Source: Dastarcus helophoroides (taxonomy: Eukaryota > Arthropoda > Insecta > Coleoptera > Bothrideridae). Taken from it: a DNA stretch of 64,000 bases. The stretch spans positions 42,236,059 through 42,300,058 of the forward strand of contig CM053327.1 in assembly GCA_028583605.1 (NCBI GenBank), in the 5' to 3' direction. The notes beneath the pieces are model-generated. The model had not been told where the DNA came from. It saw only the letters and a list, made by a program, of their open reading frames with translations, and ran no database searches. The translations under genes and the position numbers were made by a program. This document shows, piece after piece, positions 10,168 through 55,037 of the stretch; the first letter of the stretch is position 1, and every line of letters begins with the position of its first letter.

Positions 10168-10177
10168 AATAATCATT

Positions 10178-10562
10178 CTAATGCACAAACCATTAGGTTT
10201 GAACATTTATTAGATTTAGAAGTTTTGAATCCAAATACCGGTTTCGATCTTGTTAGATCTCATCAATTTGGTATATCCAACTCGAATGCTGACAAATGTT
10301 CCGACAAGTAAGTACTAAAACATTCACAGACGTCAAGCGAGTGACTCTTAGTACTACCACCTATTGGTCCATAGAGAAACTATGGCCATCGCCAACAATG
10401 TCGTATGCAAGTAGAATGCAACCTAGTCTACAAATTCATGCAGCCCTCCAGGCGGCGTGTATAGCGAATCATAGGTAGCTGAACTACCAACAGTTGAAAC
10501 ACTGCCACCTAGCGAAGCGATTGCTCTCTAGGAAAGTCCCCAGAAGACAAGGATTCTAATGC
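10178..10562 (-). mobile_element. Retrozyme-like element, family A, complete monomer
   Basis: A 385-bp unit flanked by the 10-bp direct repeat AATAATCATT (10168-10177 and 10563-10572). One end is CTAATGCACAAACC and the other TTCTAATGC. It shares its whole length with the family A copies at 16866-18036 and contains ATTGGTCCATAGAGAAAC and CACCTAGCGAAGCG. It encodes no protein; the frame at 10296-10478 is incidental. The hammerhead lies on the minus strand at 10231-10271. Size and structure resemble animal retrozymes (non-coding hammerhead retroelements of roughly 170-400 nt). Confidence 0.8.
10231..10271 (-). ncRNA. Hammerhead ribozyme, family A, inactivated copy
   Basis: Minus strand: CCAAA, then TTGATGA in place of CTGANGA, stem II GATCT/AGATC, GAAACCGGTA and TTTGG. 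The invariant first C of the box is T here, so cleavage should be abolished. The stems and the palindromic ACCGGT stem III are kept. Confidence 0.75.
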
Positions 10563-10599
10563 AATAATCATTGTTCGACTCAATTCACATCAGGAGTAC

Positions 10600-12189: not shown

Positions 12190-13165
12190 TAGGTTTGTCT
12201 CAAGAAGAAGCTCGATATATGGATGTTACATCGATGCAAAAAAACATTTTGGACCAAATTGATGCCTCTGATTCTTTATTGAAGAACAACAAAATTTTTA
12301 AAGCGAATGGTGGCTGGTGATGAAAAATATGTCACATACGAGAACAACAAGCGACCAAAGTCGTGGTCCAAGCCATATATGTAATACTTCTATATGGCGC
12401 GTTTTGTCCCTTTGTTTGTGTCAAAAAGGCGCGATGGATATTGTCTTTATCAAGGACACAATATATTAACCAATCCCGCTTCTTGTTGTCATTCATTTAT
12501 TAGTGTCCCCGCCCATCTTGTCATCTGTTCCCGCTATAAATGAATGAATGCTTGTCCTTGAAAGAACACGATATATATACTTTCGTCTCACCTTTTTGAC
12601 AAAGCATTTTGTAGTGGCGATTTTACACAACACGCCATATAGACGTATTATATATATGGTCCAAGCGCGGTAAACCGACTCAAATGGTCGCCAAGCCCGG
12701 ATTAACGACCAAGAAGCTTTTACTGTGTGTTTGGTGGGATTGGAAGGGAATCATACACTATGATCTGCTCCCATCGGGCGAATCACCCAATTCTGACCTA
12801 TACTGTCAACAACTGACTAAATTGAAGCATGCGATTGACGGGAAGCAACCAGAATTGGCCAATTGGAAAGGTGTTGTGTTCCATCAAGGCAATGTCAGAG
12901 GGCACACATCTTTAACGACGCTTCAGAAGCTCAGAGAGCTTGAATGGGACGCTATATCACACTCGCCGTATAGCCTAGAACTTGCTCCAAGCAAACCTCT
13001 TCAAGCATTTGTAACATTTTCTTGATGGTACAAACTTGTCTCAAGAGAGACTTCTGAATATGAGCAGGTCAAATTTTTTACTGATAAGGAAGAGGACTTT
13101 TCAATCGCGATGAAATTGCCATTAAAATGAACAAAAGTTATCGAACTAATGGCGCATATTTGATC
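12190..13165 (+). pseudogene. Mariner-family transposase, decayed 3' two-thirds
   Basis: Conceptual pieces in order: KNILDQIDASDSLLKNNKI, a frameshift, GDEKYVTYEN, the MITE insertion (12374-12656), then VAKPGLTTKK, CVWWDWKGIIHYDLLP, DLYCQQLTKLKHAID, FHQGNVRGHTS, SPYSLELAPSKP and, after stops, FFTDKEEDF. These are mariner transposase landmarks (D,D34D catalytic domain). The first Asp (GDEK) survives. The second (normally HQDNAR) is Gly, and the third (normally LAPSD) is Lys. With frameshifts, stops and an insertion, it cannot be active. The N-terminal DNA-binding domain and the terminal repeats were not found. Confidence 0.88.
12374..12656. mobile_element. 283-bp MITE inserted in the mariner pseudogene
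   Basis: Flanked by the duplicated mariner bases TGGTCCAAGC (12364-12373 and 12657-12666). Ends are inverted repeats of about 30 bp: TAATACTTCTATATGGCGCG at the left, and its counterpart with CGCCATATAGACGTATTA at the right, with a few mismatches. It has no coding capacity. A 9-10-bp duplication with long inverted repeats fits a Mutator-like (MULE) MITE, but this assignment is inference. Removing it restores the mariner reading order, which confirms the boundaries. Confidence 0.85.
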
Positions 13166-13930
13166 TAAATCTGATAATTGAAATCTTGTCCCCTGAAACC
13201 AAGAAACCAAGAGAGATTAAAAGACACAACAAAAGTTGCTCTAACGCGTTTCGATAGTCAAGCTATCTATCTAGCTATCATATTCTCCGTATAGCCCAGA
13301 ACTTGCTTCATGCAAACCTTTTCAAGCATTTGCAACATCTTCTTGATGGTACGAAACTTTTCTCAAGAGAGACTTCTGAATATGAGCTGGTCAAGTTTTT
13401 TACTGATAAGGACGAGGACTTTTTCAATCGCGATGAAATTGCCATTAAAATGAACAAAAGTTATCGAACTAATGGCCCATTTTTGATCTAAATCTGATAA
13501 TTGAAATCTTGTCCCCTGAAACCAAGAAACCAAGAGAGATTAAAAGACACAACAAAGGTTACTCTAACGCGTTTCGATAGTCAAGCTATCTATCTATCTA
13601 TCATACTCTCCGTATAGCCCAGAACTTGCTTCATGCAAACCTTTTCAAGCATTTGCAACATCTTCTTGATGATACGAAACTTGTCTTAAGAGAGACTTCT
13701 GAATATGAGCTGGTCAAATTTTTTACTGATAAGGACGAGGACTTTTTCAATCGCGATGAAATTGCCATTAAAATGAACAAAAGTTATCGAACTAATGGCG
13801 CATTTTTGATCTAAATCTGATAATTGAAATTTTGTCCCCTGAAACCAAGAAACCAAGAAAGATTAAAAGACACAACAAAGGTTGCCCTAACGCGTTTCGA
13901 TAGTCAAGCTATCACCTTCAGAGAGACGCT
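12966..13930 (+). repeat. ~322-bp tandem triplication: mariner tail plus family C arm
   Basis: CCGTATAGCC occurs at 12966, 13287 and 13610 (spacing 321 and 323). Each unit has the last ~200 bp of the mariner transposase (RETSEYELVKFFTDKDEDFF in one frame) followed by the left arm of the family C foldback, TTGTCCCCTGAAACC to TCTAACGCGTTTCGATAG. Units end in a short (CTAT)n run. The 62-codon frames at 13303 and 13626 are copies of the transposase tail, not new genes. Confidence 0.85.
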
Positions 13931-15532: not shown

Positions 15533-17051
15533 CGTACTATAATATATAGTATTGTACTATATTTCACGTCTGTGTATTATATACTATTAAAAAAATATAT
15601 AGTACGCAAATATACTATATTTCAGTTGTGTTCTACACGAGTTTTATTTTAAATCTTTAGTTTTTACTAAATATTTTACAAATTTCAAAATAGAAAATTA
15701 AAAAATTAGAAAATTTGAAACACCACTTTTTTCAGGAATTTTTACTTCCTTCTCGAAGTTTAAAGAAAATATTAAGCATTATTAACGCAGTCCTTAACAT
15801 CTGTGAAAAAAATAGAAATTTTAAGCGAAAGTTGAAATTTTGATAAAATATTTTGGATTAAAACTCGAAATTTCTTCAAAAAATCAAAACTTCAGGAAAA
15901 TTTGAAAATTCCGCTAATTCAGATTTCTTTCTAAAATTTCGATTTCTTTAAAAGTCTCACCACTGTCAATTTGAACATTTTTTTAAATTTCGATAGTTTT
16001 TTAAATTCTGGACTTTTCAAACTTTTAACTGAACATTTTGACTTTAAAATTTCGACTTTTATTAAATTTCGACATGTTTTAAAAATTTCGAATATTCTTT
16101 CAAAATTTTGTTGAAATTTTAATTTTTTTTAACATAAAACTTTTATAAAATATCGACTTTTTTCTGCAAAAATCGATTTTTTTAAAATTTGACGTTTCTT
16201 CGAAATGAAGCCTTTTTTTTAAATTTTCGACTGTTTATCAAAATTTTTACCCCTTTTCAAATATCTTCACTTTTTTAGGAAAATTTTAAATGCTTATTAA
16301 TTTATCAACATTTTTAAAAATGTTCAAATTTTCGCCTCGTTTTCCAAAATATTAATATTTTTTTTGGAAAATTTTGGCATTTAAAAATGTTGATCTTTTT
16401 CCAAAATTCATCTATTTTTCAAAATTTTGGCTTTCTCGAAAATTTGAAACTTTTCAGAATACTCCAAATTGGAAATTTTCTTTTTTTCTGAGTTCTTTAA
16501 TAATTATTCAATGTTTAGACTTAATGAAATTATAAAGTTTTCAAAAATTCGTCTTTTCCAAAAACTCTTTTATGAAATTTCTGACATTTCTCAAAATTCT
16601 ACTTTAAATTTTCTACTTTTTTTAAACTTTTGCACTTTTTTTAAAGCATCGCTTTTAAAATTTTCGACATTTTTTCAGAATGCATCCATTTTTCAAGTTG
16701 TTTTAAGTTTTTTGAATAATTTTGAAAATTTGGTTATATTAAAAATTAAAAAAAAATAAAAAAATTAAAATTTCGACTTTTATTAAATTTCGACATTTTT
16801 TCAACACTTCGAATATTCTTTGAAAATCTTGTTGATATTTTAATTTTTTTTAACATAAAACTTTTGCAAGAAGAATGCAACCTAGACTACAAATTCATGC
16901 AGCCCTCCAGGCGTGTATAGTGTGAATCATAGGTAGCTGAACTACCAACAGTTGAAACACTGCCACCTAGCGAAGCGGTTGCTCTCTAGGAGAGTTCCCA
17001 GAAGACAAGGATTCTATAATGCACAGACCAATAGGTTTGAACATTTATTAG

Positions 17052-17124
17052 ATTCGAAGTTTGGAAACCAAATACCGGTTTCGATCTTGTTAGATCTCGT
17101 CAGTTTGGTATATCCAACTCGAAT
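17052..17124 (-). ncRNA. Hammerhead ribozyme, family A, intact
   Basis: Minus strand: outer stem I ATTCGAG and TTGGA, internal loop TATA, inner stem I CCAAA, box CTGACGA, stem II GATCT, loop AACA, AGATC, GAAA, CCGG, T (16.1), A (cleavage position), inner stem I TTTGG, internal loop TT, outer stem I TCCAA and TCGAAT. All invariant bases of the hammerhead core are present. It is a type I topology (open at stem I) with an internal loop in stem I opposite the stem II loop, as needed for tertiary contact. Stem III is the self-complementary ACCGGT. Confidence 0.85.
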
Positions 17125-17545
17125 GCTAATAAATGTTCCGACAAGTAAGTACTAAAACATTCACAGGCGTCGAGCGAGTGACTTTTTAGTACTACCACCT
17201 ATTGGTCCATAGAGAAACTATGGCCATCGCCAACAATGTCGTATGCAAGAAGAATGCAACCTAGGTCTGTGCATTATAGAATCCTTGTCTTCTGGGAACT
17301 CTCCTAGAGAGCAACCACTTCGCTAGGTGGCAGTGTTTCAACTGTTGGTAGTTCAGCTACCTATGATTCACTATACACGCCTGGAGGGCTGCATGAATTT
17401 GTAGTCTAGGTTGCATTCTTCTTGCATACGACATTGTTGGCGATGGCCATAGTTTCTCTATGGACCAATAGGTGGTAGTACTAAAAAGTCACTCGCTCGA
17501 CGCCTGTGAATGTTTTAGTACTTACTTGTCGGAACATTTATTAGC

Positions 17546-17618
17546 ATTCGAGTTGGATATATCAAACTGACGAGATCTAACAAGATCGAAACCGGTATTT
17601 GGTTTCCAAACTTCGAAT
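17546..17618 (+). ncRNA. Hammerhead ribozyme, family A, intact (tandem copy 1)
   Basis: Same fold as 17052-17124, on the plus strand. One base of inner stem I differs (TCAAA instead of CCAAA), which turns a C-G pair with TTTGG into a T-G wobble, so the stem remains. Core CTGACGA and GAAACCGGTA unchanged. Confidence 0.85.
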
Positions 17619-17924
17619 CTAATAAATGTTCAAACCTATTGGTCTGTGCATTAATAGAATCCTTGTCTTCTGGGAACTCTCCTAGAGAGCAACCGCTTCG
17701 CTAGGTGGCAGTGTTTCAACTGTTGGTAGTTCAGCTACCTATGATTCACTTATACACGTCTGGAGGGCTACATGAATTTGTAGTCTAGGTTGCATTCTTC
17801 TTGCATACGACATTGTTGGCGATGGCCATAGTTTCTCTATGGACCAATAGGTGGTAGTACTAAAAAGTCACTCGCTCGACGCCTGTGAATGTTTTAGTAC
17901 TTACTTGTCGGAACATTTATTAGC

Positions 17925-17997
17925 ATTCGAGTTGGATATACCAAACTGACGAGATCTAACAAGATCGAAACCGGTATTTGGTTTCCAAACTTCGAAT
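17925..17997 (+). ncRNA. Hammerhead ribozyme, family A, intact (tandem copy 2)
   Basis: Identical in all core and stem positions to 17052-17124. The distance between the CTGACGA boxes of the two tandem plus copies (17567 and 17946) is 379 bp, so a read-through transcript cleaved at both sites would release a 379-nt monomer. Confidence 0.87.
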
Positions 17998-19689
17998 CTA
18001 ATAAATGTTCAAACCTATTGGTCTGTGCATTATAGAATAAAACTTTTATAAAATATCGACTCTTTTTGCAAATATCAATTTTTTCAAAGCTTGACATTTT
18101 TTCCAAATGTAGTCCTTTTTAAAATTTACAACTGTTTATCAACATTTCTACTCATTTTCGAAAGGCTTCACTTTTATTTTGAAAATTTTAAATGCTTATT
18201 AATACTTTAACATTTTTCATAATTTTGACTTTAAAATTTTCAAATTTTTGCATCTTTTTTCCAAAATACTAACTTTTTTTTTCAATTTGGGGTTTTAAAA
18301 ATTGTGATATTTTTCCAAAATTCATTTATTTTTCAAAATTTTGGCCTTTTCGAAAATTTGAAACTTCAGAATTCTCCAAATTTAAATGTTCTTGTTTTTT
18401 TGCGTTCTCTGATCATTATTCAATGTTTGGACTTTATAAAATTATAGGAAGTTTTTTAAAATTATGTCTTTCCCAAAAACGCTTTACTTTTTTTCTTCTG
18501 ACATTTCTCAAAATTTCATTTTAAATTTGCTACTTTTTTTTAACTTTTTCTCTTTTTTAAAAACATCGCTTTTAAAAATATCGACATTTTTTGAGAATGC
18601 ATCCATTTTTTAAATTGTTTTAAGTTTTCTGAATAATTTTGGAAATGTGATTATATTAAAAATTTAAAAAAATTAAAATTTTGACTTTTTTTGAATTTCT
18701 CAACACTGTCAATTTGGATATTTTTTTAAAATTTAGATAGTCTCTTAAATTCTGGACTTTTTAGACTTTTAAATAAACATTTTGACTTTGAAATTTTGAG
18801 TTTTATTAAATTTCGATATTTTTTCAAAACTTCGAATATTCTTTGAAAATCTTGTTCAAATTTTAATTTTTTTTAACATAAAACTTTTATAAAATATCGA
18901 CTCTTTTTGCAAATATCAATTTTTTTAAAGCTTGACATTTTTTCAAAATGTAGTCCTTTTTAAAATTTACAACTGTTTATCAACATTTCTACTCATTTTC
19001 GAACGGCTTCACTTTTATTTTGAAAATTTTAAATGCCTATTAATATTTTAACATTTTTCATAATTTTGACTTTAAAATTTTCAAATTTTTGCATCTCTTT
19101 TCCAAAATTTACCTTTTTTAAAATGTTGGCTTTTTAAAATTGTGATATTTTTCCAAAATTCATCTATTTTTCAAAATTTTGGCCTTTTCGAAAATTTGAA
19201 ACTTCAGAATTCTCCAAATTTAAATGTCCTTGTTTTTTTGCGTTCTCTGATCATTATTCAATGTTTGGCTTTTATGAAATTATAGGAAGTTTTTCAAAAT
19301 TATGTCTTTCCCAAAAACTCTTTACTATTTTTCCTCTGACATTTCTCAAAATTTCATTTTAAATTTTCTACTTTTTTTTAACTTTTTCTCTTTTTTAAAA
19401 ACATCGCTTTTAAAAATATCGACATTTTTTGAGAATGCATCCATTTTTTAAATTGTTTTAAGTTTTCTGAATAATTTTGGAAATGTGATTTTATTAAAAA
19501 TTTAAAAAAATTAAAATTTAGACTTTTTTTAAATTTCTCGACATGTCAATTTGGATATTTTTTTAAATTTAGATAGTCTCTTAAATTCTGGACTTTTTAG
19601 ACTTTTAAATAAACATTTTGACTTTGAAATTTTGAGTTTTATTAAATTTCGATATTTTTTCAAAACTTCGAATATTCTTTGAAAATCTT

Positions 19690-19944
19690 CTATAATGCAC
19701 AGACCAATAGGTTTGAACATTTATTAGATTCGAAGTTTGGAAACCAAATAACTTCGAATCTAATAAATGTTCAAACCTATTGGTCTGTGCATTATAGAAT
19801 CCTTGTCTTCTGGGAACTCTCCTAGAGAGCAACCGCTTCGCTAGGTGGCAGTGTTTCAACTGTTGGTAGTTCAGCTACCTATGATTCACTATACACGCCT
19901 GGAGGGCTGCATGAATTTGTAGTCTAGGTTGCATTCTTCTTGCA
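19690..19944. mobile_element. Family A insertion, rearranged, hammerhead deleted
   Basis: Flanked by a 12-bp duplication, TTTGAAAATCTT (19678-19689 and 19945-19956). Begins CTATAATGCACAGACC, runs to AACCAAATA, then turns back head-to-head at ACTTCGAATC (a ~48-bp inverted repeat) and continues to TTGCATTCTTCTTGCA. The turn lies exactly where the hammerhead should be, so the ribozyme is missing. Confidence 0.85.
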
Positions 19945-22323
19945 TTTGAAAATCTTGTTGATATTTTAATTTTTTTTAACATAAAACTTTTATAAAATAT
20001 CGACTCTTTTTGCAAATATCAATTTTTTCAAAGCTTGCCTTTTTTTCAAAATGTAGTCCTTTTTAAAATTTACAACTGTTTATCAACATTTCTACTCATT
20101 TTCGAACGGCTTCACTTTTATTTTGAAAATTTTAAATGCTTATTAATATTTTAATATTTTTCAAAATCTTGACTAAAATTTTCAAATTTTTGCATCTTTT
20201 TTCTAAAATATTAACTTTTTTTAAAATTTTGGCTTTTAAAAATTGTGATATTTTTCTTAAATTCATCTATTTTTCAAAATTTTGGCCTTTTCGAGAATTT
20301 GAAACTTCAGAATTCTCCAAATTTAAATGTTCTTGTTTTTTTGCGTTCTCTGATCATTATTCAATGTTTGGCCTTTATGAAATTATAAGAAGTCTTTCCC
20401 AAAAACTCTTTACTATTTTTCTTCTGACATTTCTCAAAATTTCATTTTAAATTTTCTACTTTTTTTTTAACTTTTTCTCTTTTTTAAAAACACCGCTTTT
20501 AAAAATATCGACATTTTTTGAGAATGCATCCATTTTTTAAATTGTTTTATGTTTTCTGAATAATTTTGGAAATGTGATTTTATTAAAAATTTAAAAAAAT
20601 TAAAATTTAGACTTTTTTAAATTTCCCAACACTGTCAATTTGGATATTTTTTTAAATTTAGATAGTCTTTTAAATTCTGGACTTTTCAGACTTTTAAATA
20701 AAAATTTTGACTTTGAAATTTTAACTTTTATTAAATTTCGATATTTTTTCAAAATGTCGAATATTCTTTAAAAATCTTGTTCAAATTTTAATTTTTTTTA
20801 ACATAAAAACTTTTATAAAATATCGACTTATTTTGCAAATATCGATTTTTTCAAAGCTTGACATTTCTTAAAAATGTAGCCCTTTTTGAAATTTTCGACT
20901 GTTTATCAAAATTTCTATTTCTTTTCGAAAAGCTTCACTTTTTTTTTGAAAATTTTACATGCTTATTAATATTTCAACATTTTTCAAAATTTTGACTTCA
21001 AAATTTTTAAATTTTGCTTCATTTTTCCAAAATATCAACTTTTTTTTAATTTAAAATTTTGTTAAAGTTTTGGCTTTTAAAAATTTTAATGTTTTTCCAA
21101 AATTCATCTATTTTTCAAAATTTTGGCATTTTCGAAAATTTGAAACTTTTCAAAATACTTCAAATTTGAAATTTTCTTTTTTTTGAATTCTTTGATCATT
21201 ATTCAATGTTTAGACTTTATGAAATTACAAGAAGTGTTTCAAAACTTTATCTTTTCCAAAAACCCTTTTATGAAATATTTTGACATTTCTCAAAATTATA
21301 ATTTAAATTTTCTACTTTTTTTTTAACTTTTGCTCTTTTTTGAAAATATCGCTTTTAAAAATCTTGACATTTTTTGGGATGCGTCCATTTTTTTACATAT
21401 TTAAAATTTTTTGAATTATTTTAAAAATTTGGTTTTATTTTTTGAATTATTTTAAAAATTTGGTTTTATTATTGGATTTTTTTTTAAATTGCGCTGTTTT
21501 TGAATTTTAAGGAAAATTTTGATATTGTTTTTATTATTTCGCTCTTCTTTTTAAACTCGTTGATTATTTTTCAATATTTTAAATTTTTTAAAATTGCAAA
21601 TTTTTTGAAATCCATTTTTTTTTAATTCTGATTTTTTCGACAATTCAAAATTTTGGGTTGTTTCAACATTTTCGAATTAAAATATGGACAGTTATTTCAA
21701 AACTTTTGTTTTTTAAGCTCCGATTTTTTCTAAAAATTGTTCCATTTATTACTAAATTTTAAATTTTTATTTGGAGGTTTTGACTTTTTTAAATGTCCCC
21801 TTTTTTGGATTCTATGAGTATTTTTCACTATTTCAACGTTTTGAAATAGCACGGATTTACTTAAAACTTTCTACTTTTTTAAAAATTCTGATTCTCTTCT
21901 GTAAATTTTGTATTTTTAAGAAAATTTCGGCATTTCTCAAAATTTGATTTCAAAATTTCAATTTATTTTTTCAAATTTTTGTCTTATTTTAAAAATTTCG
22001 TTTTTTAATGATATTTACACTTTTTGGAAAATTTACCCATTTTTCAAAATGTTGAAGATTTTTCGAATATTTTAAATCATTTTAGAAATTTTATTTTTTC
22101 CATTTTAAGGTTTTTAAACATTGTGCTGTTTTTTAAGATTTTGAATTTCTGGGAAAATTTTGATTGTTTTTTTTAAATCTTATTTTATTTCAAAATTTAA
22201 CATTTTAACTTTTTAAAAAGTAGATTACAAATTTATTCAAAACTTTATTTTTTTGGAAATTTTAATTTTTTTTAGAACATTAACTTTTTTATAAAATTTT
22301 CAATTTTTTTCAAAATTTCTACT

Positions 22324-22530
22324 GACAAATGACCAATTAAATGTTCTGTAATTAAACAGTTAAACGTGCTTAAAATTGAAAATATGTACAACCGCAACCA
22401 TAGACTAGTTTCGGCCTTCCTTGGCCTCATCAGCATGGTACGGTGGTTGTATACACTTCCAATTTAAAGCCAGTAGTCAGTCGTATAAGTATCCAAGAGA
22501 GCAAACAGAACATTTAATTGGTCATTTGTC
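22324..22530. mobile_element. Small hairpin element, family B, with 26-bp perfect inverted repeats
   Basis: Bases 22324-22349 (GACAAATGACCAATTAAATG, then TTCTGT) are the exact reverse complement of 22505-22530. The 155-bp interior holds the family B hammerhead. Part of the interior (AAACGTGCT, then ATTGAAAATAT and TACAACC) resembles 25917-25952 and its copies in the 762-bp array. The plus frame of 80 codons at 22421-22663 starts inside and is incidental. Confidence 0.75.
22387..22451 (-). ncRNA. Hammerhead ribozyme, family B, intact
   Basis: Minus strand: outer stem I TACAACC, inner stem I CCATG, box CTGATGA, stem II GGCC with loop AAGGAA and GGCC, GAAA, CTAG, T (16.1), C (cleavage position), inner stem I TATGG (one G-T wobble), outer stem I GGTTGTA. 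Every invariant core base is present and the cleavage triplet is GTC, the most common one. Stem III is again a palindrome, ACTAGT. The flanking 26-bp inverted repeats extend stem I into a long hairpin. Confidence 0.88.
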
Positions 22531-23094
22531 AAACCTAGATGAAAGTAAAGTCAAGCCGAGGACGTTTGTATCTATGGATGTTGCGATGCAACCCGTGATA
22601 CAAGCTTTGCCTCATCTACGTGAACTTTGCAACATCTACGTGAACTTTGCAATTGCAGTCTAGTTTTCATTAGATTCTAATGAAATTAGATTTCAATTGC
22701 ATCGTAATAAACTTGTATATATTCGTATATACAAGGCTTATTATTTCAAAATTTCGACTGTTTTCAAATACTTTCGAGTTAATTTAAAATACTAACTTTT
22801 TTTAAACATTTCGACTTTTCTAAATATTTACAATTTTGCCTCATTTTTCAAAGAATCGAACTGAAAGTTTCAAAATTTCGACTAAATTTAAGATAACACT
22901 TTTTTAGAATTCTGATTTTTTTAAAATCTCAGTTTTGATTCGAATTTTCCACTTTTATTGAAAAATTTTAAAGGAGGGCATGAACAGATTTTTTTATACT
23001 TTAGGGGGCACACCATATAGATGAACACCTGTCATCAAATATGCTATATTTTTTATTGCTTATTTTGATAAATACTAAAATCAGGCGAAAATAT
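22531..23094. other. Right part of the hAT-like element
   Basis: Bases 22531-22740 are higher-complexity DNA following the family B hairpin, with a local duplication of CATCTACGTGAACTTTGCAA (22614 and 22634). Then comes T-rich satellite to about 22970 and a subterminal segment with GGGGGCACACCATATAGATG. No gene. Confidence 0.5.
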
Positions 23095-33689: not shown

Positions 33690-35690
33690 TTCAGAAAATC
33701 AAAATTTAAAGAAAAGCCGAAGTTTCCGAAAAAAACGAATTTTGAGAAATGGTAGAATTTCGAAAAATAAAACGTTAAAGTTTGAGGTAAAAATTCGAAA
33801 TTTTGACTTAAGTCCAATTCTGGTGAAAGAAATCGAATTGTGGGAATGTATTTGAAATTTCGAAAGAAATTTATAATAAAAGACGAATTTTGAGAAATAA
33901 GTCGAAAATAAGGCAAAATGTGAAGTTGAAATTTCTGGAGTGAAATTTATAAGTCAAAATTTGCAAAAAAGACAAATTTTCAGAAAAGTGGTAGAATTTT
34001 TATAGAAAAAATGATTTTCGAACAAAGAGGCCAAAAGGTAGAATTTTGAGAATACAGACGAAATTTCGAAAAAAGACGAATTTAAACTAATTTTAAGAGA
34101 AATGGTAGAATTTCGAAAAATAAAACGTTAAAGTTTGAGATAAAAATTCGAAATTTTGACCTAAGTCCAATTCTGGTGAAAGAAATCGAATTGTGGGAAT
34201 ATATTTGAAATTTCGAAAGAAATTTATGATAAAAGACGAATTTTGAGAAATAAGTCGAAAATGAGGCGAAATGTGAAGTTGAAATTTCTGGAGTGAAATT
34301 TATAAGTCAAAATTTGCAAAAAAGACAAATTTTCAGAAAAGTGATAGAATATTAATAGAAAAAATGATTTTCGAACAAAGAGGCCAAAAGGTAGAATTTT
34401 GAGAATACAGACGAAATTTCGAAAAAAGACGAATTTAAACTAATTTTAAGAGAAATGGTAGAATTTCGAAAAATAAAACGTTAAAGTTTGAGATAAAAAT
34501 TCGAAATTTTGACCTAAGTCCAATTCTGGTGAAAGAAATCGAATTGTGGGAATATATTTGAAATTTCGAAAGAAATTTATGATAAAAGACGAATTTTGAG
34601 AAATAAGTCGAAAATTAGGCGAAGTATGAAGATGAAATTTGTGGAGTGAAATTTAAAACCCAAAATTTTCAAAAAAGACAAATTTTCAGAAAAAAGTGGT
34701 AGAATTTTGATAGAAAAAATGATTTTCGAAAGAAGAGGCCAAAAGGTAGAATTTTGAGAATAGAGGCGAAATTTCGAAAAAAGACCAATTTAAACCAATT
34801 TTAAGAGAAATGGTAGAATTTCGAAAAATAAAACGTTAAAGTTTGAGATAAAATTTCGAAATTTTGACCTAAGTCCAATTCTGGTGAAAGAAATCGAATT
34901 GTGGGAATATATTTAAAATTTCGAAAGAAATTTATGATAAAAGACGAATTTTGAGAAATAAGTCGAAAATGAGGCGAAATGTGAAGTTGAAATTTCTGAA
35001 GTGAAATTTATAAGTCAAAATTTGCAAAAAAGACAAATTTTCAGAAAAGTGGTAGAATTTTGATAGAAAAAATGATTTTCGAAAGAAGAGGCCAAAAGGT
35101 AGAATTTTGATAATACAGACGAAATTTTCAAAAAAGACCAATTTAAACTAATTTTAAGAGAAATGGTAGAATTTCGAAAAATAAAACATTGAAGTTTAAG
35201 ATAAAAATTCGAAATTTTGACCTAAGTCCAATTCTGGTGAAAGAAATCGAATTGTGGGAATATATTTGAAATTTCGAAAGAAATTTATGATAAAAGACGA
35301 ATTTTGAGAAATAAGTCGAAAATGAGGCGAAATGTGAAGTTGAAATTTCTGGAGTGAAATTTATAAGTCAAAATTTGCAAAAAAGACAAATTTTTAGAAA
35401 AGTGGTAGAATTTTTATAGAAAAAATGATTTTCGAAAGAAGAGGCCAAATGGTAGAATTTTAAGAATACAGTCGAAATTTCGAAAAAAGACCAATTTAAA
35501 CTAATTTTAAGAGAAATGGTAGAATTTCGAAAAATAAAACGTTAAAGTTTGAGATAAAAATTCGAAATTTTGACCTAAGTTCAATTCTGGTGAAAGAAAT
35601 CGAATTGTGGGAATATATTTGAAATTTCGAAAGAAATTCATGATAAAAGACGAATTTTGAGAAATAAGTCGAAATTTCGAGAAAATGTCA
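33690..35690. repeat. 353-bp tandem array, about six copies
   Basis: GGTAGAATTTCGAAAAATAA occurs at 33751, 34104, 34457, 34812, 35165 and 35518, a spacing of 353-355 bp. Units are highly similar, sharing CCAATTCTGGTGAAAGAAAT and GAGGCCAAAAGGTAGAAT, which indicates recent amplification. No coding capacity. Confidence 0.92.
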
Positions 35691-42495: not shown

Positions 42496-42535
42496 CCAAA
42501 CTGACGAGATCTAACAAGATCGAAACCGGTCTTTG
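42496..42535 (+). ncRNA. Hammerhead ribozyme, family A, intact minimal core
   Basis: CCAAA, CTGACGA, GATCT/AGATC, GAAA, CCGGT, C, TTTGG. The cleavage position is C rather than A, giving the canonical GTC triplet. The inner stem I is complete, but the outer stem I and its tertiary loop are truncated, which would lower activity. Confidence 0.75.
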
Positions 42536-42600
42536 GTTTCCAAAATTTGAATCTAATAAATATTCAACCCTATTGGTCTGTCCATTAGAATCCTTAAGAT
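42496..42600 (+). mobile_element. Family A fragment with hammerhead
   Basis: Carries the family A hammerhead and the adjacent AATCTAATAAATATTCAACC and CTATTGGTCTGTCCATTAG, then ends at AGAATCC. The other 270 bp of the unit are absent and the outer stem I is lost on the 5' side. Confidence 0.8.
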
Positions 42601-43625: not shown

Positions 43626-43671
43626 TAAATTCTAATGCTGGATCTATTCATAGATACGTTTACCTACTAGA

Positions 43672-44190
43672 CATTAGAACATGTCGACAATTTAAATTAC
43701 TAGACATTGAGTATGTGGGTAATTCAAGTTACTAAACATTAGGGTATGACGGTAGTTCAAATTACTAAACATTAGGGCATATCGGTAGTTCAAATTACTA
43801 GACATTAGAGTATGTGGGTAATTCAAATTACTAGACATTAGAGTATGTGGGTAGTTCAAGTTACTAGACATTAGGGTATGACGGTAGTTCAAATTACTAG
43901 ACATTAGGGCATATCGGTAGTTCAAATTACTAGACATTAGAGTATGTGGGTAATTCAAATTAGCAGACATTAGAGTATGTGGGTAGTTCAAGTTACTAGA
44001 CATTAGGGTATGACGGTAGTTCAAATTACTAGACATTAGAGTATGTGGGTAGTTCAAGTTACTAGACATTAGGGTATGACGGTAGTTCAAATTACTAGAC
44101 ATTGGGGCATATCGGTAGTTCAAATTACTAAACATTAGAGCATGTCTGTAGTTCAAATTACTAGACATTAGAGCATGTCGGTAGTTTAAA
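43672..44190. repeat. 33-bp minisatellite, about 15 copies
   Basis: The unit reads like ACTAGACATTAGAG then TATGTGGGTAGTTCAA. Variants alternate between GAGTATGTGGG, GGGTATGACGG and GGGCATATCGG in a partly regular order, suggesting a higher-order repeat. Because 33 is a multiple of three, a 158-codon minus frame of 11-residue repeats (SSNLNYRHTLM) stays open. I do not regard it as a gene. Confidence 0.93.
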
Positions 44191-44760
44191 TTAGCGTTAT
44201 TGGTAACGCGAAACCATTCGTTTACACTTTAAAAATGTATCGTATAGATTCACACGCGTATGTAGCCCTCACTGTAGAAACGTTGCTGCTTATTTAATGC
44301 AGTCGAAGGAAACAGTTTCAAATAAATTGTTTGCGACAAAGGAAGAGATGAAATTTGATCTTAATAGAGTTGCGAACAGAATAGGTAACAGAACGTTTTA
44401 AAGTATATTTTTAGTTATTTGACGTTGACAAGATAACTGATAGTATAAAATGTATTCTTGTACGTCAGGTCTTGTAACTTTAAAATATAATAATAAAACA
44501 CTGTAACATAACGCTGTGACTTTCTTGATATTTTTCAATATTTAATATTTAATATTTTTCAATAACTTTCAATGCTGCATGCTGCAAACGGTTGATAATT
44601 TATGAACGAGGCAACTGCTTAGATTGATTTCCATTTGTTAGACGATAAATGGCGAAAACATCTAGAGTTTAAAAAAAAAAATTAATTCAAATGTTGCTCA
44701 AAAAAAACTAAACGAATTTGTCTGTAAATAATTAGTAATAAACATATTTAGCTTGTACTT
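44191..44760. other. Non-repetitive AT-rich DNA
   Basis: Includes short direct repeats of TTTCAATATTTAATATTT near 44530-44570. No gene recognised. Confidence 0.4.
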
Positions 44761-46050: not shown

Positions 46051-46382
46051 TGGGGTAAAGGGGTGAAACCTTCTTGGACTTAAGGCAAAATACTCTAAAA
46101 AAGGCATTAAATTGACCCCATGTATTATCAACGTTTTTCGTTCCGTGCCAGTTTTACCGTCGCATGGTCACACAGATAAGAAATGCGATAGAGCAAAGTA
46201 AATACCGCCGCACCGGGGATATGTTGTCATGCAATCAGAGTAATAAGTAGAAACCGGATTGTAAACACAATCAAATAAGGTAAAAAGGTAAACAAAATGT
46301 TAATTTAGGCAAAAACAAACAGTTAAAAAAGGCAAAACACTCTCTAAAGCACAAAACTAAACGCTGTAGCTTGTGATTAAGT

Positions 46383-53747: not shown

Positions 53748-54105
53748 TTTTTTTTGGCGAAACGGACTGGTCCTTGGTTATCTTCAAAAATTGAAATACA
53801 GAAGTTGTCCCCTGAAACCAAGAAAGATTTAAAAACACAACAAAGATTGCTCTAAGGCGTTTCGACCGCCAAGCTGTCATCTTCAGAGAGAAACTCAGTT
53901 TCTTGGCTTTCTTGGTTTCAGGGGACAAGTTCTGTATTTCAACTTTTGAGGTTAAAAGGAGAAAAAAAATGAAATTTCATCTCTCTGAAGATGACAGCTT
54001 GGTTATTAAAATGCCTTAGAGCAACCTTTGTTGAGTGTTTTAATCTTTCTTGTTTTCAGGGGACAAGATTTGTAATTAAATTTTGGACCAATCCGTTCCA
54101 CCATA
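53748..54105. mobile_element. Family C foldback, long copy
   Basis: Left arm from CGAAACGGACTGGTCC; then a second partial right arm (TCTTGGTTTCAGGGGACAAG at 53907), then a full right arm to GGACCAATCCGTTCCACC. Minus-strand core in the left arm: CTGAAGA, stem II GACAGC/GCGGTC with one mismatch, GAAA, CGCCT, nearly intact. The plus-strand core has lost stem II and GAAAC. Confidence 0.75.
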
Positions 54106-54842: not shown

Positions 54843-55037
54843 AATTGAAACACAGAACTTGTCCCCTGAAACCAAGAAAGATTAAAAAACACACTTTCTC
54901 TCTGAAGATGACAGCTTGTCTGTCGAAACGCGTTAGAGCAACCTCTGTTGTGTTTTTTAATCTTTCTTGGTTTCAGGGGACAAGTTCCGTGTTTCAATTT
55001 TTGAAAATAACCAAGGACCAGTCCGTTCCATCAAACA
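54843..55037. mobile_element. Family C foldback with intact core
   Basis: Short left arm (TTGAAACACAGAACTTGTCC to AAAAAACACAC) followed directly by the right arm from CTCTCTGAAGATG to CAGTCCGTTCCATC. The left arm lost its own ribozyme-like centre. Confidence 0.82.
54898..54938 (+). ncRNA. Hammerhead-like ribozyme, family C, intact core
   Basis: CTCT, CTGAAGA, unpaired T, GACAG, loop CTTGT, CTGTC, GAAA, CGCGT, T, AGAG. It differs from 32229-32269 only in the loop (TTGT instead of TTGG), so all paired and conserved positions are kept. Confidence 0.6.

Follow-up and report, generated by a model that had tools for sequence, protein, structure and literature searches.

A hammerhead retrozyme in the beetle Dastarcus helophoroides, probably inserted from an RNA circle that primes on both strands of the target in the manner of Penelope

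Background

In what form, and by what machinery, does a non-coding repeat with hammerhead ribozymes enter a chromosome when its units lie partly inverted and partly in tandem between two copies of one short target sequence? The question is raised by positions 16866-18036 (insertion 1) of a 64,000-nucleotide stretch of the Dastarcus helophoroides genome (C3:42236059-42300058, within a 538.9-Mb assembly), the whole of which we call the window. A first-pass annotation had read this locus as a retrozyme that arrived by retro-insertion, possibly with Penelope enzymes supplied in trans, and the anatomy of the copies examined here supports that suggestion. Insertion 1 is a non-autonomous, non-coding mobile element with a predicted self-cleaving RNA. 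Judging from sequence, we put at about 0.8 the probability that it is a metazoan retrozyme whose circle was inserted by a resident Penelope element priming both target strands at two fixed sites.

Metazoan retrozymes without long terminal repeats (non-LTR retrozymes), insects included, have already been published together with a circle-and-Penelope proposal (PMC7229834; PMC7761336; these and the other papers are cited for their accessible parts). Cervera and de la Pena proposed in 2020 that the circle is the template and that Penelope is a strong candidate for mobilisation (PMC7229834); that proposal left the inserting machinery and the circle as template open, and the present genome offers strong sequence evidence on both. 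The elements of that account are patchily distributed in invertebrates and, like the one described here, have non-coding tandem units of 150-450 bp, type I hammerheads and target duplications longer than 4 bp; the two-site head-to-head rule, the fixed duplication length and the one-monomer test reported below are absent from its accessible text. No account of retrozymes inserted head-to-head from two sites came to our notice in a literature search, which did not reach most papers behind subscription. Plant LTR retrozymes likewise use hammerhead circles as retrotransposition intermediates, but they differ in having type III hammerheads, LTRs, 4-bp duplications and probably Gypsy machinery (according to PMC7229834).

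Layout and target site of insertion 1

Insertion 1 and its flanks consist of the following parts, A and B being two sites in the unit at which copies end.

16855-16865, no strand: left target site duplication ATAAAACTTTT, with an identical copy at 18037-18047; single at empty sites
16866-17263, minus strand: antisense segment, 398 nt (one lap plus 19 nt); its left edge is a sense-3' end, at site B
17264-18036, plus strand: sense segment, 773 nt (laps of 377 and 379 nt, plus 17 nt); its right edge is a sense-3' end, at site A
18037-18047, no strand: right target site duplication ATAAAACTTTT, identical to 16855-16865

The 11-bp duplications that had been claimed on both sides are exact copies; at positions drawn at random the edges agree over at least 10 nt in 0.6% of draws from the satellite block and in 0.4% of those from the window (4000 draws each). 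The empty site, also claimed earlier, is kept in sister satellite units at 18829-18937 and 20757-20863 and partly at 19945-20037. The three units of about 379 bp, inverted plus tandem, prove to be circularly permuted versions of a single unit of 377-379 nt, one antisense followed by two sense, and this size falls within the 150-450 bp of metazoan retrozymes. The longest stop-to-stop frames listed across the element are of 61-74 aa, as befits a non-coding element. The surrounding AT-rich satellite (16044-21439, several diverged units) hosts insertion 1 and a second copy, insertion 2.

Hammerhead ribozymes

Each unit of insertion 1 contains one hammerhead.

17050-17121, minus strand: type I hammerhead of unit 1, with palindromic ACCGGT stem III and GTA cleavage triplet (RF02275, 34.4 bits, E 1.4e-6, below the gathering score)
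17549-17620, plus strand: type I hammerhead of unit 2 (RF02275, 32.4 bits, E 6.2e-6, below the gathering score)
17928-17999, plus strand: type I hammerhead of unit 3 (RF02275, 34.4 bits, E 1.4e-6, below the gathering score)

The complete type I hammerhead that had been described for each unit is recovered in 3/3 units, with cleavage triplet GTA, by RF02275 (Hammerhead_HH9) when an E-value threshold takes the place of the gathering score (E ~1e-6). The covariance-model check that the first-pass annotation had called for therefore succeeds at the E-value level and fails at the gathering score (52 for RF02275), where Rfam gives no hammerhead match. Scored over the whole window, the same matches have E-values of 6.9e-5 to 3.1e-4. 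Each unit reads CTGACGA - GATCT/AACA/AGATC - GAAA - CCGGTA and has a long stem I. Its score stays below gathering on account of stem III, a palindrome (ACCGGT) that has no loop; the gap in the RF02275 alignment coincides exactly with the absent stem III loop. The circular fold of unit 1 has a predicted energy of -129.9 kcal/mol, which 100 shuffled sequences place at z = -7.0. Among the copies of this unit across the genome (family 1), the hammerhead core is intact in 151 of the 156 laps that retain the stem II word, and the exact hammerhead word was found in no viral contigs.

As in the dimer-active hammerheads of newt, salamander and Penelope, stem III is too short for good closure of a monomer (PMC7229834, PMC7761336), but unlike in those hammerheads it forms a perfect palindrome of 6 nt, and does so in both of the unrelated families of this genome (ACCGGT here, ACTAGT in the second family described below). 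Some factor must stop animal circles from cleaving (PMC7229834). We propose that with the loop-less stem III of both families multimers would cleave while the monomeric circle would stay whole.

Two fixed ends in the genome copies of family 1

Insertion 1 as a query gave at least 325 matches in the genome, from 40 scored of 1899 candidates, and 39 other listed loci plus the four window copies make up a set of 43, in which long copies are favoured. We split the loci into segments on unit coordinates, position 1 being the first base 3' of the cleavage site. The sense-3' ends cluster round two positions, A with its mode at 59 and B with its mode at 206, and 79 of 82 lie no more than 12 nt from one of them (41 at A, 38 at B, 3 elsewhere) in a zone that makes up 13% of the circle. 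At 36/43 loci a segment whose sense-3' end is at A meets, head-to-head, another whose sense-3' end is at B (A left in 22, A right in 14; L014, which borders N, was counted nonetheless), and not one of the 43 loci has an A+A or B+B pair. L026 and L028 also conform to A+B when their ends are set by the duplications; the exceptions are L022, which is interrupted by N, and the single-segment loci L035, L041, insertion 3 and insertion 4. The inverted-plus-tandem layout is the prevailing form of family 1 and is not peculiar to insertion 1.

The target duplications recur at the further genomic copies. Exact duplications of at least 9 nt flank 36/43 loci [12 bp in 21, 13 bp in 7, 11 bp in 5, 10 bp in 2 and 14 bp in 1], the mode of 12 agreeing with the >4 bp of metazoan non-LTR retrozymes; with right flanks swapped between loci as a control, 0/300 meet the duplication criterion, and 4/300 would pass if a length of 9 nt were all that was asked. 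Taken over both families, the duplications of exactly 12 bp (n = 30) have an A+T content of 76.9%, compared with 70.6% for flanking DNA at a distance of 100-900 nt, and the first 1-3 nt of the target extend the unit sequence at A in 29/35 copies, a count for which the chance level was not computed. These patterns support a reading of the sequences in which each target strand primed one cDNA (complementary DNA), one at A and the other at B.

The inner (5') ends of the segments are scattered round the unit, and 30/38 junctions show an overlap of 0-5 nt between the segments (range -32 to 7). Segments run for 0.1-5.5 laps, with 66/81 longer than one lap. The three segments in the window had suggested laps ending 7-20 nt beyond a full circle, a pattern that we rejected on the scattered 5' ends of the genome copies.

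One monomer per insertion

Variants were tallied at unit sites covered at least three times per insertion, and 54 are common to all laps, 130 are restricted to a single lap and 15 are intermediate. Of the all-lap variants, 46 are seen in both segments and 26 belong to two common alleles; 24 are distinct, of which 16 are private to a single insertion. Because variants tend either to recur in every lap, whichever the strand, or to be confined to one, we conclude that a single monomer was read repeatedly and that the laps on both strands mostly stem from it, as a circle predicts.

The rival that survives best makes the template a linear, uncleaved multimer from a genomic tandem array in place of a circle. 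It can draw on published work in which unprocessed RNA was inserted in vitro by a Penelope for which its hammerhead is dispensable (PMC11167929), on segment 5' ends that are scattered and scarcely favour the cleavage site, and on the 15 variants present in only some laps. A multimer from a mixed array would, however, be expected to leave many intermediate variants, whereas most variants are of the all-lap or one-lap kind and the private all-lap variants point to passage through one monomer; we regard a linear template as unlikely. In their sequence the copies display two fixed start sites, one for each target strand, a cut staggered by about 12 bp, several laps of one monomer and short overlaps at most joints.

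Among the all-lap variants, T at unit position 290 recurs in 14 insertions and G at 266 in 12 (L009-L047), a pattern that suggests subfamilies of circulating circles.

A second hammerhead family

The window also holds a hammerhead on the minus strand of 22320-22743 that has the motifs CTGATGA, palindromic ACTAGT and GTC. This window stretch as a query gave at least 124 matches, of which we analysed 29 distinct loci; the unit, set by tandem copies, is 466 nt long, slightly above the 150-450 bp range, and is unrelated to family 1. Head-to-head segments with one end at A2 (near 79) and the other at B2 (near 277) occur at 22/29 loci, a figure biased upward by a query that is itself an inverted composite and favours inverted matches. 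The remainder comprises one locus with two A2 ends (L050) and six that are otherwise arranged or truncated, and duplications of at least 9 nt are present at 20/29 loci. Query bias by itself does not account for the fixed ends and duplications of family 2. The fold of the 424-nt window stretch as the family unit, and the motif likenesses to family 1 drawn from it, were discarded, the stretch being an inverted insertion of the real 466-nt unit.

The resident Penelope elements

A GIY-YIG search of the genome, in which 150 of 1070 candidates were scored, gave at least 91 matches, and a 417-aa frame at one of them matches RVT_1 (E 1.2e-11) as well as GIY-YIG (E 1.2e-6). This 417-aa piece was used as a query in turn; with 100 of 5510 candidates scored, it gave at least 100 matches, of which the best reach 94-97% identity, and open frames extend to 814 aa. 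Three copies (C20:68891-70105, C9:21061096-21062310 and C8:18826054-18827268) were probably active recently, because their frames are still open over 780-814 aa and they are 96-97% identical to the query.

By eye, the Penelope matches listed include eight head-to-head pairs within about 1.1 kb and two wider ones, and no tail-to-tail pairs were noticed among them. We compared the outer ends in four of the eight pairs. In 4/4, one 3' end lies at reference position 213-218 and the other runs to 251, where the reference is trimmed; untrimmed pairwise alignments place the long end at 251-255, about 35 nt beyond the short one. The duplications at these pairs measure 12, 12, 12 and 15 bp (n = 4).

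We infer that Penelope acted in trans because the retrozymes share with the Penelope copies examined their layout, the duplication length and the asymmetry of one short and one tailed end, each retrozyme family having two fixed internal start sites. Published Penelope-like elements have further traits in common with the retrozymes (PMC3846280, PMC11167929): head-to-head copies, direct tandem units, short and tailed ends, AT-rich targets, duplications of similar size and an internal start of reverse transcription. In Adineta, Penelope carries inverted pseudo-LTRs (pLTRs), one with an optional 31-bp tail, and 8-10-bp duplications (PMC3846280). With the purified anole Penelope protein, both strands are cut and extended, and synthesis begins at two sites within the RNA (PMC11167929). 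Unlike Penelope-like elements, which encode a reverse transcriptase (RT) and a GIY-YIG endonuclease, the retrozyme units are non-coding and encode neither, so they are not themselves members of that group; the gap between the two ends also differs, at about 35 nt in the resident Penelope against 146 and about 198 nt in the two retrozymes.

Twin priming by LINEs (long interspersed elements) yields inverted 5' parts, with a single fixed 3' end and variable duplications. Ordinary twin priming by LINE-type machinery could in that way have produced the inverted segments, and the duplications and microhomology are also compatible with target-primed reverse transcription. Here, however, the copies have two fixed ends that differ from each other, and the length of their duplications is sharply peaked at 12, as in the Penelope pairs examined, which makes a LINE origin improbable. 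Less probable still is that the units are pLTRs of truncated Penelope copies and not a separate retrozyme: an inverted unit beside direct units does recall Penelope pLTRs (PMC3846280), but these units close on themselves in laps and lack a long open reading frame (ORF), comparison with one 4.6-kb Penelope locus gave nothing better than E 0.04, and neither of the two Penelope 3' ends tried has an Rfam hammerhead match. Spread as satellite DNA, by reinsertion of excised circular or hairpin DNA and later unequal exchange, would suit tandem units within a satellite block but is highly improbable given constant ends and duplications, the head-to-head rule and variants shared by both segments at dispersed loci.

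How a circle would be inserted

In the mechanism that we favour, Penelope-type insertion of a retrozyme circle, multimeric transcripts would self-cleave at their type I hammerheads; since the loop-less palindromic stem III would need two hammerheads, multimers would be cut and the monomeric circle spared. A host ligase would close the monomer into a circle, and the resident Penelope protein (RT plus GIY-YIG endonuclease), supplied in trans, would make a staggered cut of about 12 bp and prime on it. In most of the copies examined two cDNAs, one per target strand, start at A (near nt 60, counted from the cleavage site) and B (near nt 206) of one monomer, run for 0.1-5.5 laps and meet head-to-head inside a duplication of 10-14 bp (mode 12).

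Several observations weigh against this mechanism. The start sites of Penelope and both retrozymes have no significant motif in common, such as a recognition sequence shared with the Penelope RNA; the best start-site pair at A is equalled by 35/500 random window pairs, and a shared TTGGWC motif was dropped as not significant. The lack of a hammerhead match in the two Penelope 3' ends belongs here too, as do purified Penelope start sites that are alike on both strands in vitro, unlike the A+B pairing of the present copies (PMC11167929). A pairs with B in the predicted fold of two units (P ~0.6-0.9) and not in that of unit 3 or insertion 3, and in family 2 A2 and B2 lie in separate hairpins; direct pairing of A and B in an RNA rod, which holds for the two units only, was accordingly rejected as a general rule. 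Single-primed copies make up 4/43 family-1 loci. Segment 5' ends cluster weakly within 6 nt of the cleavage site (6/81 against 2.8 expected; 4/58 against 1.6 near the site in family 2), and the 15 part-lap variants fit one monomer poorly. The family-1 query is itself inverted, like that of family 2, and the selection of 40 from 1899 candidates was not open to inspection. By our reading of the listing, 28 of the 39 listed loci matched solely through the direct-tandem part or single laps, and because 23 of these 28 are strictly A+B (25 with L026 and L028), the inverted query is not visibly the source of the A+B rule. Among the window copies besides insertion 1, which were chosen without a score, insertions 2 and 5 are two-ended and insertions 3 and 4 single.

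We lean, with more reserve than for the retrozyme reading itself, towards a broader joint claim, in which a Penelope dimer would cut about 12 bp apart and prime both 3' ends at once, at two distinct fixed sites of one hammerhead circle, the rule of one short and one tailed end would be general to Penelopes, and retrozymes would be dedicated circular-RNA parasites. Such a process could be called bidirectional rolling-circle target-primed reverse transcription, and each two-ended insertion would be the DNA record of one RNA circle. The copies in this genome also suggest an integration rule for Penelopes, testable on the purified enzyme, and provide a genome-only fingerprint by which RNA circles can be traced in other animals.

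Other copies and neighbouring features in the window

Beyond insertion 1, the window contains three further family-1 copies (19690-19944, 10178-10562 and 42497-42594) and the second hammerhead family at 22320-22743, none of which the first-pass annotation had listed.

19678-19689, no strand: insertion 2, left target site duplication TTTGAAAATCTT, 12 bp
19690-19750, minus strand: insertion 2, antisense segment, 61 nt, ending at A; inner end 2 nt from the hammerhead cleavage site
19751-19944, plus strand: insertion 2, sense segment, 194 nt, ending at B
19945-19956, no strand: insertion 2, right target site duplication TTTGAAAATCTT, 12 bp
10178-10562, minus strand: insertion 3, single segment of one unit plus 7 nt, about 93% identity, A-type end
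10168-10177 and 10563-10572: insertion 3, duplications AATAATCATT, 10 bp
42497-42594, plus strand: insertion 4, 5'-truncated, A-type end
22320-22506, minus strand: insertion 5, of the second hammerhead family (466-nt unit), segment ending at A2, with its hammerhead at 22380-22452 (minus strand)
22507-22743, plus strand: insertion 5, opposite segment, ending at B2
22308-22319 and 22744-22755: insertion 5, candidate duplication TTTCAAAATTTC, a word present once more nearby, at 22868

Insertion 2 consists of two head-to-head segments, like insertion 1. The hammerhead core of insertion 3 is altered (TTGATGA), and no target duplication was found for insertion 4 (42497-42594).

Pfam applied to ten selected window ORFs gave a piece of mariner transposase as the sole match; this mariner-type remnant (12615-13022, plus strand; PF01359, E 4.1e-22) adjoins a 323-bp tandem repeat at 12955-13913. 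Other repeats in the window are a pure (TG)n tract of 373 bp (2622-2994), a 353-bp satellite in 5.5 copies (33733-35674) and a 33-bp minisatellite in 16 copies (43665-44193). A short repeat at 46290, 47200 and 48112 recurs with a period of 910-912 bp, with ORFs in step, and this periodicity is probably that of a larger tandem repeat, above the 500-bp limit of the repeat finder. Sub-threshold matches to microRNA families occur on both strands at 53792-53941 and 54855-54987, which may be palindromic repeats resembling MITEs (miniature inverted-repeat transposable elements).

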